From Heliocybe sulcata (taxonomy: Eukaryota; Basidiomycota; Agaricomycetes; Gloeophyllales; Gloeophyllaceae), in assembly GCA_004369045.1 (NCBI GenBank), contig ML213506.1, positions 1,118,264 through 1,182,263 on the forward strand: a DNA stretch of 64,000 nt. The letters run 5' to 3'. The position numbers were made by a program, and so were the translations under genes. Under the pieces are notes generated by a model. It saw only the letters and a list, made by a program, of their open reading frames with translations, was not told the origin of the DNA and did not search any database. Positions 38,065 to 58,275 of the stretch are shown piece after piece (position 1 is the stretch's first letter; each line of letters opens with the position of its first letter).

Positions 38065-38752
38065 TGCGGAGGTATAAGACTAGAAAGGCCTAGGGTGTTT
38101 AGAGAAGCTTCAAGCTGAGCAGACCAGTATGCTTAGGGGCCCTTTTAAGTGCCAGAGATTTGTGAGCTGGGAATAAGCACCCGAGTTCTGAGAAGGGGTT
38201 GACAGAAGTAATCCATTGCCAGCACTGGTTTTGAAGAGAATGGATGGCGCGATGAAATGTGAGCTGGACAGCCAGATGGTGCAATTTGACGTACTCCCAT
38301 GAACAGCGGACTATATTTCGTGACACTGGCGCCATCGTGTCCATGATCGACGCACATGTGCGGGGACACGCGTAATAATCGCTCGTTTACTGAAGCACAC
38401 GACCACCATCAGATTCGGACGTTAGAGAGACTCGAGGTCTGTCGCTTGTTTGAATGTTGATACACGACGCAGAGGAAGCTCTCCGAAGGCGTTGCTACCC
38501 CGCTGCGAGTGCCCGCGCATAAGATATTCGGAATTCACTGACGGCTGCGTGAATACGCTTCGATGGACGAGTGAGAGAGTATGCTTTCCTAAGATGCAAC
38601 GACGTCGAGGCAATGAACAGACTTGATGCCTTGCAGTTATTCGGAATTCCCGAAATAAAGACACCGAAATACATGCGTCGGCCTCGCTTATGTAACGAGG
38701 TTTCCCCCGTTGGCGCTCGAGGGCGAGTGCAGCTATTACATCGTTCACACTT
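38065..38752. promoter_or_regulatory. Divergent promoter, UPF0643 / complex I 21.3 kDa subunit
   Basis: This 688-base region holds both promoters. The 7-mer TTCGGAA occurs at 38527-38533 and 38640-38646, the second beside a TTCCCGAA. The same core is repeated in the promoter at 54613-55519. No TATA box is clear. Confidence 0.45.
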
Positions 38753-52994: not shown

Positions 52995-54612
52995 TCACCG
53001 GTTATGGGCTATGGACACTATGGTTTCATACGACCTGTCCTGGGTTTGACCGGGGAGCTGGAGCGGGGGAAGCGGCTTCTCTTTACCGATTTCTATATCT
53101 TTCGGTGGGCGGATGGGCTGGTCGTTCGCAATGGCGTCGGACAGGTAGGGTGCTTTGAATATAGAGCGATCCATTATTGCGGGGATTGTGCGAGCCACGA
53201 CGTATATCCAGATCACGAGAACCAGGACTATGGCGTATTCGTTAGATGGAAGTCAGGGAGTAGCATGGCGGATCATCCTTACCTGACCAAAACGCGCCAA
53301 ATACACGGAAAGTGTAACTGTCCAGTACATCGGCCAGCTTGACAGTCAACATGGCGAATACGCCGTTCGGGAAAATAAGCCCCCAGTAGGTCATGGCGAA
53401 CGGAATCTTGCCCTTCCTTGCGGTGTGGATAATAGAGCAGATCGCGATGATGATCCAGCAGATGCCCATCGACCACAAGATGTAGGCGCCGCAGAATGAT
53501 ACTGCGAAGATCATCTGACCGGCAAGCGCAGACTGGGGGAACGTCCCGGTATTATGTAGCGGCAGAAATTCTGACAGATCCTGGCCAGACTGGAGGAGCG
53601 AGTAACCGCCTTGGCCCAAAGGACCCAACGTGATGAATGACGACAGAATGAGGCTGACATCCGGGGGGCCGTGGATGATGATGCGAGCGAGGTAGATGGT
53701 GATCATCATGAGGGCCATTGATAATCCGATGACAACCATGGTGTAGGAGAATCCCGAAGTCAGGATGGCGATTGTTTCATTGTGCTCGCGTAATGCTGGC
53801 GCGATGTTGCCTCCCGAGGATGACGCGACAATGAGGGTGACAACTGGGAGAAGCCACACCGCCGTCATCTTGGCAAATGAATGGTCCTGTTTGATCATCC
53901 TACCGCCGTTGATTAACACTGGGGATGGCGCATGACTTTGAAGCGACTTACATTGTGAAGACCATACCAAACGCAACGGCATAGGAGACGAGGAGATCCA
54001 TCCACCAGAAGGCCCATATTGCCCAAAGGAAGCTCTTGCCGCCCCAATGCCATTCCTGGTTGAGGATCTGTTTAGCCGTGATAATTAGGTCAGTTCACAC
54101 ACTGCACTAGTGCGAAACAATTTTACCAGAGCAGCATTAATTAGGGTCGCGGCTCCCATAGGGAACGCACCCATGAACATACTTTGGGCGGGATGACGGA
54201 GCATGATCGACCAAACCTAACGGAAGATTAGCTAAATGTTCGTCGGAATGCATATGACTTGATCACTTACCTCCGGGAACATTACGTAGCGGGCAATTGT
54301 GCATCCAGAGATGATGATGAACAGCAAAAAGTTGATCCAGAAGAATAGCATGAAGAAGAATTTGAGCACTGTGCTGCCCGTGCCGAAAGGGAAGGAGTTT
54401 GCTAGGCCTGACAGCACACCAGTACCCATGATGACGGTGTGCCAAGCCCAAGTAAAATGTCTAGAATGAAGATAAAAATCCGAGAATGAGTCCTACGTCC
54501 AAGGGGAGCATTATCGGTCACGATAGGAGACTCACCTGATGCACTCCTTCCAGCTCTTCAGGGGTGGCCGTGAGGGAGGCATGGTTGAGTAGGAGGACGG
54601 CGTCGACGCCAT
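52995..54612 (-). CDS. SSU1: Sulfite efflux transporter, TDT family (SSU1-type)
   Basis: This is a ten-helix transporter of the TDT family in the plasma membrane; SSU1 members export sulfite. Start MASTPSSYSTMPPSRPPLKS, then WKECIRHFTWAWHTVIMGTG and VLSGLANSFPFGTGSTVLKF. Further exons: FLLFIIISGCTIARYVMFPE, WSIMLRHPAQSMFMGAFPMG, AATLINAAL, ILNQEWHWGGKSFLWAIWAF, MTAVWLLPVVTLIVASSSGG, VSLILSSFITLGPLGQGGYS, WSMGICWIIIAICSIIHTAR, PFAMTYWGLIFPNGVFAMLT. The LGPLGQG and FPxG.....T motifs match SSU1 (LGPMGQGSFG, FPKGTM) better than malate carriers, but a dicarboxylate substrate is not excluded. The C-tail is polar with Pro runs. Divergent from the persulfide dioxygenase. Confidence 0.88.
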
Positions 54613-55519
54613 TCTACCCGTATTAATTAAGCTGTATAATGGGTAAAATGAGGAGAACCGAATCCTTGCTGGCGTGTCTGAGAGACAGAGAGGCGAGAGC
54701 GGGGGTGATTCATCATGTGTCGAGCTATGTATTGACCTCAGTCGCGAATTCCGAATTGAAGAGATAGAGTGACATGTCACATTCGGATTGAGAAGATGTC
54801 ACATGAGAACGCGCTCGGTGTTTTTTCCGAGCATCCCGCGACACAGCATTTGATCCCGCAATTTGTTTTTCGTCCTCGAGACTCTCTCCAACACATAAGA
54901 GCAAGTACACTCGCCCTTAAAGTGCGCAATAATCCCTAGGTATTCCCTTCTCTTTTGGAGTTACGCTGAAACATCCTTGGTGTCTCCGAAACATGCTCCG
55001 AAAAACACATGCCCGAATTCCGAATGTCCTTTGATCATTTCCACGCCTTTCCAGCGACGCATAGCTTGTCTCTTCCTGGCTCCACCGCGCCCAATGGCCA
55101 GCTTGTTGTATCAGTCCTTGTCATGCTGCTATCGGCAACGCCAGGTTGTCTTCGCTATCGAACTGCCCTTGTCTGCCTGGCGCTCCAAAGACTAATCTGC
55201 CTGTCTCTCCAAAGGCTGCTCTCGTAGGCTCCTATGCCAGCTATGTGCACATTCCGAATTCCAACATATTCGGAAATGAGGGATAAACTCTCCGACATGT
55301 TCCGGAAGTGTCTTTTCCTTTGAATTGTAACTGGAACCTGACCAAGGCACTGCTCGTGACCTGTCCGTCATTGGATCATATCGGAGTGACGCTGTCCGTT
55401 CGGAATTGTGAGTGTCTGGGCTTGGTGAGGCGTAGCGCTCTTCCACTATCCAGGATTCAATTCGGAAATCTCGAAAGGATATAACGCAACTTGAGTCGCC
55501 TTTCTTGGACCCCAAGCCC
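54613..55519. promoter_or_regulatory. Divergent promoter of sulfite exporter and persulfide dioxygenase, with TTCSGAA array
   Basis: This 907-base region separates two divergent starts. The 7-mer TTCCGAA or its complement TTCGGAA occurs six times exactly: 54749-54755, 55018-55024, 55252-55258, 55269-55275, 55399-55405 and 55461-55467. Near matches lie at 54782 (ttcggat), 54984 and 54996 (ctccgaa), and 55300 (ttccggaa). Chance would give about 0.1 exact hits in this length. The core is an inverted TTC-S-GAA, so a dimeric regulator is plausible. Part of it could be 5' leader sequence. Confidence 0.65.
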
Positions 55520-56853
55520 ATGGACTTTCTACTATCTTCCAAGCTAGCTACCTCTCTTACAAGGACCTGCCGTCAAAATCTAAACGCCGCCCGGCTCGCA
55601 CGCCCGCTTCATCTTACCCTCACTTGCCAGACCAAGTCCTTCGTCGAGCCTCCTATTGGTTTTCGATCACGTGACCGAACTCTCGCCCGCATCACCAAAT
55701 CTCACAACATGTCTACATTGGCATCATCCCCGCACTACCCGCAGCAGCCCGACTCGAAGTTTACCAGCGGACCTGCTGTACCTTCTCGGGTCCACGTCGA
55801 GTTAGGAAAGAATACACCAAGCGTCTACAGTTTCTTCGAGCAAGCGACCTCAACATGGACTTACGTTGTTGTGGACCCGGCGTCGAAGGAGGCGGCTGTG
55901 ATTGACCCAGTTTTGGATTATGATCATCCTTCTGGCAAGATATCGACCGAAACTGCTGATGGAATTCTAGCGTTTATTCAAGAAAAGCGGCTGGTTGTAC
56001 GTTATATCTTGTGAGGAGAACATGGAAGGTCCATGAGTCCTCACTAATAACGTCCTTTTTTCCGTAGAGAAACCCACGCGCACGCAGACCATCTTACGGG
56101 CGCCCAATATTACAAACGGTCATTGGGAGGCAATGTCCCCGTTTGCATTGGCTCTCGTATTAAGCAAGTCCAGCAGACATTTGCCCGCGTCTATGATGTA
56201 GATTCCACCCTGTTCAACGACACTTTCGATGTCTACTTCAAAGACGACGAGCACTTCACGCTAGGCGGTATGCCTTGCAAAGTCATGCACTTGCCGGGTC
56301 ATACGCCGGACCATCTGGGCTACGTCTTTGGCCGAGCGGTCTTCACCGGCGACTCGATATTTATGGTAAGACATACAGCGCCCACACGCATGACTTTGGG
56401 CTCACCACAACCTTTGTTCTAGCCGGACGTCGGTTCTGCTCGAGCCGATTTCCCAGGTGGAAACGTAAAGGATTTATACAATGTATGTCCTCCTTTTCTC
56501 CGTTGATAGTTGCGCTTATGTCATATTCTATGTGACAGTCCATGCAGCGTCTCTTATCCCTCCCTTCCGACCACCTCCTATTCGTCGGGCACGACTACCC
56601 TCCTGACCGAGACGTCGAAGACGTAGTCACAATTGAAGATCAGCGCCGACGTAACAAGCACGTCAAAGCAGGAACCGACGAAGCGACCTTCACGGCATTC
56701 CGGAGCGCGCGAGACGCCCAGCTTGGAGCACCCAAATTGCTACATCCTTCCCTTCAAGTCAATATTCGTGCAGGGAAGCTGCCGTTGGCGGATAAAGAAG
56801 GACGAGTATTTTTCAAAGTTCCAGTTAGAGCCACATTGGCTCTATCCGGATAA
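55520..56853 (+). CDS. Persulfide (sulfur) dioxygenase, ETHE1/Blh-type metallo-beta-lactamase fold
   Basis: The enzyme oxidises glutathione persulfide to sulfite and glutathione with one Fe(II). Four exons (55520-56010, 56068-56365, 56423-56482, 56539-56853) give 387 residues. Residues 1-63 (MDFLLSSKLATSLTRTCRQN ...) are Arg/Ser/Leu-rich with almost no acids, a likely mitochondrial presequence; a second Met at residue 64 (MSTLASSPHYPQQPDSKF) could give a cytosolic form. The core has ETHAHADHLTGAQYYKRSLG (metal HxHxDH), HLPGHTPDHLGYV (third His), FTGDSIFMPDVGSARADFPG (Asp ligand) and LLFVGHDYPPD (last His). The C-terminal part (RNKHVKAGTDEATFTAFRSA) is typical of the longer Blh group. The frame is kept over all introns. 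Confidence 0.9.
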
Positions 56854-57035: not shown

Positions 57036-57640
57036 CTAGATAGTCAGGATCGTGGAAGCCAGAGTCAAGCCTACGGCTACCAGGACGAGAAGAATGCGGC
57101 AGTGACCAGAGCATGGGAGCGAGAGCGTTCGTACAAAGGCGCCAGCAGAAGATGCTGCAATCACCGTTACGACAGGGAGAAGCCACACGGATGTCATGTT
57201 CTCCGACGAATGGTCTTGACGCATTTGCCTCCGTGGACCGCAGTCCGAAATAGATGAGACACTTGCCATACATTACATGGACTAGGCCCCAGCACATCAC
57301 TATCGAGATGGCGACGTCTAGCCACCGCAAACATATAAGTAGGCTTCCGCGGAATCCGTAGTCGGCATAGATGAGAGTGACAGCTACATTGATAAGGGTT
57401 GCCCGGCCCATGGGAAAGCATCCTAGATATAGGCCTTGCACGGGATAGTGTAACGTTAGAGACCAGATATCCTCAAAGAAGGTCTAGCGGGCGGTGGAGA
57501 CCAGAGCAAAGAGGATGCACAGGGCCAAATTGAGGAAGAAGAATATGAAGGTGAAGATCCGCAGAGCCTCCGCGCTTGCATCGTATGAGATATTGCCAAA
57601 TAGCATCGAGACGGAACCAGGTGCTGCAGTAAAAGTAGAA
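57036..57640 (-). pseudogene. Decayed second copy of the SSU1-type transporter
   Basis: The minus strand keeps TDT pieces in the order of the intact gene at 52995-54612: GSVSMLFGNISYDASAEALR with IFTFIFFFLNLALCILFALV and STAR (compare SGCTIAR), then DIWSLTLHYPVQGLYLGCFP and MGRATLINVAV, then QDHSSENMTSVWLLPVVTVI with AASSAGA. A TAG (57484-57486) replaces the Tyr codon after STAR. The reading frame ends in TAG about 57036, and the C-terminal half of the transporter is missing. One intron of the intact gene is absent at the stop site (GAG-GATATC). N-terminal exon sequence beyond 57640 is unclear. It is an old, truncated paralogue rather than a fresh copy. Confidence 0.78.
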
Positions 57641-58275
57641 AAATGAGTGAGATCCGGTAGTGTTGTCGATGATGGGGAGGAGAGCAGGCTGCCCTGATTA
57701 GCATCGCCAGCTCAGGAGCGGTATCACCTTCCAATCGTCCCAGAACGTAAGTAGCCGCTCACCAGCAAGGCTCGGAATGACTCAAGCTCCATGTGCATCA
57801 GCGGAACTATGCGTACCGGATGCGCACTTAGAGAAATTTCATCCCTCTCATCTTGCTACCGCGCATGAGAGCGACCTTCAATTGGTAGATAAGAGCCTCC
57901 GCTTGTCGTGTGCTCCTTGATCCCGCGAATAGATGCTGATCCAGTTCGATTGTTCAGCCACGAAGACCAGTTTCGGCGTTTTGTGGAAAATCAAGCTGCA
58001 GCTGATCAACGCGCCAGAGATGCTGTGCTGACCGCGTATATTGGCATCAGGGCTCGCTGGTGGCGTCGAGACCGACTTCAGTGAGACTGATATAGCCGTG
58101 GACGAACAAGTTGAACAGAAGAGGAGAGCAGAGGCGAACTAGGCAGCAGCGCACTTTAATCACTGAAGCTAACGTTCCCACGGTTATTCGAGGTTCGGCC
58201 GTATAAGAAGTTCCGTCGCGCCGCGACCGTCACCTCTACACATTATACCACTTATACCCTCCTCTTTTCTTTGGC
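57641..58275. other. Region between transporter relic and unknown gene
   Basis: No recognisable protein. The part near 57641-57800 may hold eroded N-terminal transporter sequence. The rest is the 5' flank of the next gene, with AT-rich sequence at 58238-58252. No repeat was seen. Confidence 0.4.

Follow-up and report, generated by a model that had tools for sequence, protein, structure and literature searches.

In bacteria, the formation of sulfite from persulfide and its subsequent export are brought together in one operon. Does a filamentous fungus make the same connection, and by what means? The question is raised by a stretch of 64,000 nucleotides of the basidiomycete Heliocybe sulcata (assembly GCA_004369045.1, contig ML213506.1, positions 1,118,264 to 1,182,263), hereafter the window, in which a transporter gene of the TDT/SLAC1 family (minus strand) and a gene for a metallo-beta-lactamase dioxygenase (plus strand) lie back to back. 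Both genes are intact and contain introns, and their start codons are separated by 907 bp that hold a cluster of a palindromic motif. The same motif recurs at other sulfur genes of the genome; this recurrence and the cluster itself are newly found here. The fungus appears to reach the bacterial pairing by way of a common promoter and a carrier unrelated to the bacterial one, and we consider it likely that the pair is a mitochondrial sulfide-oxidation and sulfite-export module within a wider sulfur regulon. An earlier note on this DNA, in which one enzyme and one pump under joint control were proposed to detoxify sulfide-derived sulfite, is partly supported: its idea was correct in outline and its scope too narrow, as sulfide:quinone oxidoreductase (SQR), rhodanese and sulfite oxidase also belong to the picture and the motif stands at genes of assimilation. 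The motif provides a directly testable handle on the co-ordination of hydrogen sulfide disposal with sulfate assimilation in a filamentous fungus, and would bear on sulfite tolerance, the sulfur volatiles of mushrooms, and disulfide-splitting secretion.

The gene pair and its predicted products

The gene models, both derived from splice signals and homology, bear out the divergent intact pair of the earlier note in place and in strand. In gene content and introns the genome reads as that of a fungus. The pair is real, and its parts are as follows.

52995..54612, minus strand: SSU1-type TDT/SLAC1 transporter gene, 6 exons, 440 amino acids (exons 54612-54536, 54460-54271, 54216-54127, 54067-53952, 53899-53283 and 53227-52995; all five introns GT...AG)
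54613..55519, no strand: common intergenic region with the motif cluster, 907 bp
55520..56853, plus strand: Blh-type persulfide dioxygenase gene, 4 exons, 387 amino acids (exons 55520-56010, 56068-56365, 56423-56482 and 56539-56853; three GT...AG introns of 56-57 bp)
55520..55708, plus strand: 63-residue N-terminal extension between the in-frame ATGs at 55520 and 55709, presequence-like by eye
57040..57690 (about), minus strand: second transporter copy, broken and truncated, in two pieces (28% and 40% identical, residues 1-226)

With the broken copy on its far side, the dioxygenase gene is flanked by two transporter copies. Neither this copy nor the second in-frame ATG figures in the earlier note.

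At the family level, the identities of both genes are clear from comparison of the proteins. A profile search of the whole genome (31.6 Mb, 51 contigs) gave SLAC1 PF03595 222 bits over the transporter locus. NCBIfam places the protein only in the broad tdt subfamily, below cut-off, and pairwise BLAST did not separate Ssu1 (89.7 bits) from Mae1 (83.2 bits). A likelihood test of only four sequences, in which the reference sequences of Ssu1 and Mae1 were provisional and the exons of a second, Mae1-like TDT gene of the genome (on C6) were joined by eye, returned the topology ((window,Ssu1),(C6,Mae1)) with a p-AU (approximately unbiased test) of 0.999 and each of the other two topologies with 0.0007. 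In the quartet alignment the blocks LGPLGQG, FWW and PMG of the transporter match the Ssu1 reference. Judged by these provisional yardsticks, the transporter is of the Ssu1 type and not of the Mae1/malate type, in agreement with the earlier note, which had called for a phylogeny against malate carriers, and sulfite is probably its export substrate, as would be predicted for this type. A search of the PDB with the carrier returned nothing at E 0.1.

The enzyme matches the Lactamase_B family, and its best NCBIfam match is NF040641 (bifunctional sulfurtransferase/dioxygenase Blh) at 302.6 bits, a score below the 625-bit cut-off for the whole protein and confined to model positions 139-421, the dioxygenase half. 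The sulfurtransferase half of the model (DUF442) is unmatched, and with this N-terminal domain missing from the match the protein does not qualify as a full bifunctional Blh. Its nearest relatives in the PDB are 9g8t (E 1.1e-78), 4ysk (1e-72) and 4efz (1.5e-66), the match to the ETHE1 structure 4chl being far weaker (1.6e-18). The metal-ligand motifs HAHADH, PGH, GDS and GHDY align with 4ysk, with alignments also to 9g8t and 4efz, and the HxHxDH, His, Asp and His motifs are thus intact, as first reported. Of the former label 'ETHE1/Blh-type', the Blh part stands (NF040641, 4ysk) and the ETHE1 part falls (4chl); by sequence the enzyme is Blh-type, nearer the dioxygenase half of Blh than ETHE1, and the label should read Blh. 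When the enzyme was searched against the whole genome, all four matches fell within its own gene, so that at that sensitivity neither a second Blh-type enzyme nor an ETHE1-like copy came to light. The protein is probably a glutathione persulfide (GSSH) dioxygenase with sulfite as its predicted product. It aligns with 4ysk/4ysl, which we take to be Pseudomonas putida PDO2 (the PDB record reads beta-lactamase domain protein), over the whole catalytic part with all metal-ligand motifs, and is about 95 residues longer at the N-terminus. The 63 residues between the two ATGs are, by eye, arginine-rich with few acidic residues, which suggests a mitochondrial presequence. The hexamer CACGTG, the Cbf1-type core given in excerpts of PMC13170222, lies at window positions 55668-55673, between the two in-frame ATGs.

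A palindromic motif in the common region and at other sulfur genes

The region between the start codons contains six TTCGGAA sites, listed here with one near-match.

54747..54757, minus strand: strict site MATTCGGAAWT, 137 bp from the transporter ATG
54782..54789, plus strand: one-mismatch site TTCGGATT
55016..55026, minus strand: strict site MATTCGGAAWT
55251..55259, minus strand: ATTCGGAAT site
55268..55276, plus strand: ATTCGGAAA site
55399..55406, plus strand: TTCGGAAT site, preceded by G and hence not ATTCGGAAW
55459..55469, plus strand: strict site MATTCGGAAWT, 59 bp from the first ATG of the enzyme

The form ATTCGGAAW has five copies in the 907 bp against 400 in the 31.6 Mb, where the same pattern read backwards has 177; the Poisson probability of such a cluster is 1.6e-12, or about 6e-8 when all such windows are allowed for. 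The strict form occurs 51 times genome-wide (backwards control, 16), three of them in this region. On the scale of the window, ATTCGGAA is found nine times, five of these in the 907-bp region (100 shuffles: mean 2.0, maximum 6), and TTCGGAAT with one mismatch is mildly enriched (70 vs 48.9, a level reached by one of 100 shuffles). The element is palindromic with the core ATTCSGAAT, and its longest form, GCAATTCGGAATTGC, is identical at the genes for sulfite oxidase, sulfite reductase alpha and a CHCH protein. A repeat or mobile element as the origin of the copies was rejected: with 900 of the 907 bp as query and simple repeats skipped, the intergenic stretch matches only itself in the genome.

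The wider occurrence of the motif was approached from the sites and from the genes. The 51 strict sites fall in 45 places, of which 31 were looked at, the window included. The choice was non-random, following mostly contig order or multi-site places; four were taken as perfect-palindrome sites and viewed over 1.4 kb, and it was the gene that led to the sulfite oxidase place. Genes were recognised by eye, then checked with hidden Markov models where stated. At four of the 30 non-window places a core sulfur gene lies within 1 kb downstream of the motif, namely sulfate permease, sulfite reductase alpha, rhodanese and sulfite oxidase. If the genome has 40 to 100 such genes, 0.04 to 0.09 would be expected, and four or more have a probability of 7e-8 to 3e-6; if the sulfite oxidase place is omitted, the count is 3/29 (P 7e-6 to 1.1e-4 for the same numbers of genes). 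The strict site is 243 bp upstream of sulfite reductase alpha (identified by FAD_binding_1, with POR sub-threshold and cysJ the best in NCBIfam, below cut-off) and 89 bp upstream of the rhodanese, which is related to yeast YOR285W, TSTD1, RDL2. Phosphoglycerate dehydrogenase has a motif site at 76 bp.

The gene-centred set consists of 12 genes to which searches with families or proteins had led: the C6 transporter, two NIR_SIR, three Mo-co_dimer, three sulfate permease and two PAPS_reduct genes, and SQR. Strict sites lie within 1 kb upstream of two of them (0.019 expected, P 1.8e-4), one sulfate permease at 34 bp and sulfite oxidase at 422 bp. The permease result is not independent, since the family was searched after a permease had been seen beside a motif site; without the three permeases, sulfite oxidase is the one gene of nine (0.0145 expected, P 0.014). 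SQR, picked from the pathway and identified via a Caballeronia fusion protein (see below) and PDB chains of mitochondrial SQR, has no strict site within that distance and carries ATTCGGAAT 98 bp and TTCGGAAT 172 bp upstream, the chance of one ATTCGGAAW per 1 kb being 0.013. Counting all forms, the genes for SQR, rhodanese, sulfite oxidase, sulfate permease and sulfite reductase alpha each have at least one motif copy no farther than about 0.45 kb ahead of the inferred start.

Several of these places have further features. CACGTG occurs 189 bp upstream of SQR. Two sulfate permease genes face each other within about 10 kb (L096/L097, C3:1610001-1630500), with several motif copies around them. 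Three motif sites (L092:4434-4664) stand 20, 156 and 175 bp upstream of the CHCH gene, which is COX19-like, and the same cluster lies directly past the 3' end of a bZIP gene (profile match found) that we presume to be CYS3-like.

Counterparts in bacteria, yeast and animals

According to excerpts of PMC5823870, the bigR operon of Xylella and Agrobacterium encodes Blh together with a TauE-related sulfite transporter. The fungal pair, with activities that are predicted, resembles it in joining a Blh-type persulfide dioxygenase to a sulfite exporter. It differs in that the enzyme shows no DUF442 sulfurtransferase match, the carrier is TDT/SLAC1 and not TauE, the genes are divergent and have introns, and no ArsR/BigR regulator is seen in the 10 neighbouring frames scanned. 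A wider sample of bacteria comprised 110 open reading frames adjoining the enzyme at 60 of 80 loci, 20 being dropped where frame picking gave no enzyme frame, and neighbours at least 700 bp away or at least 700 residues long being left out; it contained ArsR HTH (21), TauE (5), PF04143 sulfur transport (4) and Blh phosphatase-like (4) frames.

Two annotated plasmid loci were opened, and one of them has a divergent exporter. On plasmid p2 of Caballeronia grimmiae, TauE, two YeeE/YedE genes and ArsR are divergent from the metallo-beta-lactamase enzyme, behind which a phosphatase-like/FAD oxidoreductase fusion is encoded. As in the fungus, a Blh-type dioxygenase has a divergent exporter, here with an SQR-like partner alongside; the carrier family, the ArsR regulator and the operon are different, and the fungus has its SQR and rhodanese at loci apart from the pair. 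On plasmid p2 of Thioclava (L127) no exporter is divergent from the Blh-type enzyme; a TIGR01244 sulfurtransferase and a sulfate permease come after it on the same strand. It follows from the Caballeronia locus that the topology of the fungal pair is known in bacteria, where the carrier is of another family; the bacterial parallel drawn earlier gains support from this locus and from PMC5823870 in excerpt. A TDT carrier beside a Blh-type enzyme was also considered as a bacterial pattern and is unsupported: tblastn of the carrier against the 80 loci, a weak test, gave one match at E 0.17; PF03595 occurs somewhere in 10 of 40 genomes (41 of the 80 loci sampled), a count of presence and not of adjacency; and it is not among the 25 listed of 73 families in the 110 adjacent frames.

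In eukaryotes, the Zcf2 circuit of Candida albicans controls SSU1 with the cysteine dioxygenase CDG1, as excerpts of PMC13170222 describe it. The likeness would be that one control covers SSU1 and an enzyme that produces sulfite; in H. sulcata no cysteine dioxygenase was found, the persulfide dioxygenase would replace it, and the two genes are adjacent. The mitochondrial sulfide oxidation of animals proceeds through SQR, TST, ETHE1 and SUOX (steps from PMC5823870, in excerpt). Equivalent steps are all represented in the fungal motif set, the differences being a Blh-type dioxygenase, an additional exporter and a control element common at the DNA level. This element, ATTCSGAAT, is unlike the CYS-3 motif ATBRCGCCATC (PMC8550094) and the Met31/32 and Cbf1 motifs CTGTGGC and CACGTG (PMC13170222), as these stand in excerpts of the two papers. 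Neither the SSU1-dioxygenase pair nor the element is described among the literature matches listed, in which subscription journals are thinly covered, and the available part of one paper on Cys3 in Cryptococcus gives no binding element.

The proposed module and its alternatives

In the module that we favour, SQR and rhodanese, encoded elsewhere in the genome, would make glutathione persulfide, the Blh-type dioxygenase would oxidise it to sulfite, and the SSU1-type carrier would export the sulfite, for which sulfite oxidase would be a second outlet. The SQR, rhodanese, dioxygenase and sulfite oxidase of the genome correspond to the known mitochondrial sulfide-oxidation set, and SQR and rhodanese likewise begin, by eye, with presequence-like stretches. 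Both window genes would be controlled by one region with several copies of the palindromic element; they are probably co-regulated, and the joint control postulated in the earlier note is made likely by the cluster and by the recurrence of its motif at SQR, rhodanese and sulfite oxidase. One putative sulfur-responsive factor would set the pair, SQR, rhodanese, sulfite oxidase, sulfate permease and sulfite reductase alpha together, and such a common factor is probable because the same element lies upstream of all these genes. Enzyme activity, transport substrate, mitochondrial location, and the common regulator with its signal are what we infer here from protein families and DNA motifs. Since SQR, rhodanese and sulfite oxidase are in the genome, export need not be the sole exit for sulfite. 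No cysteine dioxygenase was found in an exon-wise search of the genome, which short exons may escape, so persulfide is a likely dedicated source of sulfite. As genes for the uptake of sulfate and the reduction of sulfite have the motif too, the control seems to extend beyond detoxification, and the distribution as a whole suggests one control circuit for sulfide and sulfite handling. We put forward, as a tentative and somewhat doubtful extension, that the palindrome GCAATTCSGAATTGC with core ATTCSGAAT is an undescribed sulfur-control element that joins sulfate uptake and sulfite reduction to SQR, rhodanese, the Blh-type dioxygenase, sulfite oxidase and SSU1, that its regulator is not of the Cys3, Met31/32 or Cbf1 site type, and that the SSU1-dioxygenase promoter is its densest target.

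Several points weigh against the favoured module. The motif at assimilation genes is odd for a detoxification circuit, and among fungi the pair is known here from one genome. The two strict sites of ATP sulfurylase are as far as about 1.3 kb upstream, and those of the second sulfate permease begin only at 2.35 kb. The larger number of the 30 strict places have no recognised sulfur gene; neighbours named by eye include a copper ATPase, mitochondrial EF-G, a laccase, a retroelement and an F-box gene, among others. The class of core sulfur genes was defined after the genes had been seen, and the starts of the partner genes are inferred from sequence. TTCGGAA is absent from the 681 bp taken as upstream of sulfite reductase beta, from the 1001 bp ahead of the first matched exon of PAPS reductase, and from the 802 bp upstream of nitrite reductase and the whole 5.5-kb piece that contains it. 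With up to two mismatches allowed, the strict site is still absent upstream of sulfite reductase beta and nitrite reductase, and PAPS reductase has one two-mismatch match. Looser forms of the motif were looked for at the located genes other than the C20 Mo-co_dimer gene, the C6 PAPS_reduct gene and the third permease.

Sulfite secreted by dermatophytes splits the disulfides of outside proteins, a process called sulfitolysis. The pair might similarly be a sulfur-scavenging unit: when sulfur is short, sulfite would be recovered from persulfides by the dioxygenase for use in assimilation and in part secreted by the carrier for sulfitolysis, and the motif would be a sulfur-starvation element. This would fit the sites at sulfite reductase alpha and sulfate permease, the more distant ones at ATP sulfurylase and the second sulfate permease, and the presumed CYS3-like bZIP gene that adjoins one motif cluster. 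We still regard it as unlikely, as the element is also at SQR and sulfite oxidase, both of which remove reduced sulfur, and is unlike the CYS-3, Met31/32 and Cbf1 motifs (PMC8550094 and PMC13170222, in excerpt). It is quite improbable that the two genes belong independently to a general sulfur regulon and that their adjacency is an accident without functional meaning. The other members of the motif set do lie on other contigs or far off, and the locus has been rearranged, as the broken transporter copy on the other side indicates; on the other hand, the two products fit as consecutive steps, and in at least one bacterial relative the same type of enzyme has a divergent exporter. A malate or other dicarboxylate TDT carrier unconnected with sulfite, to which the close pairwise scores and the broad tdt placement would lend themselves, is very improbable in view of the quartet test, which excludes grouping with Mae1, the Ssu1-like blocks and the separate Mae1-like copy on C6.

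Around the pair, 10 frames between or beside the two genes, part of those in the neighbourhood, matched no Pfam family at E 0.01, a supposed short-chain dehydrogenase/reductase (SDR) gene at 51.7-52.5 kb has no Pfam match, and Rfam at gathering scores has no match in the window. Two more TTCGGAAT sites of the window, at 38527-38534 and 38640-38647 (plus strand), are 113 bp apart and lie upstream of a minus-strand reading frame at about 37.2-38.1 kb. Elsewhere in the genome, two strict sites 21 bp apart (L094:4138-4169) are more than 1 kb from a possible EgtB-like gene, an unproved candidate (weak DinB_2 match, E 0.0023), and two motif sites 17 bp apart (L121:2499-2525) are upstream of a bZIP gene (weak bZIP_1 match) that is presumably YAP1-like. 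A possible sulfotransferase-like frame, recognised by eye at L130:101-571 (minus strand), has a perfect-palindrome site about 0.3 kb upstream.

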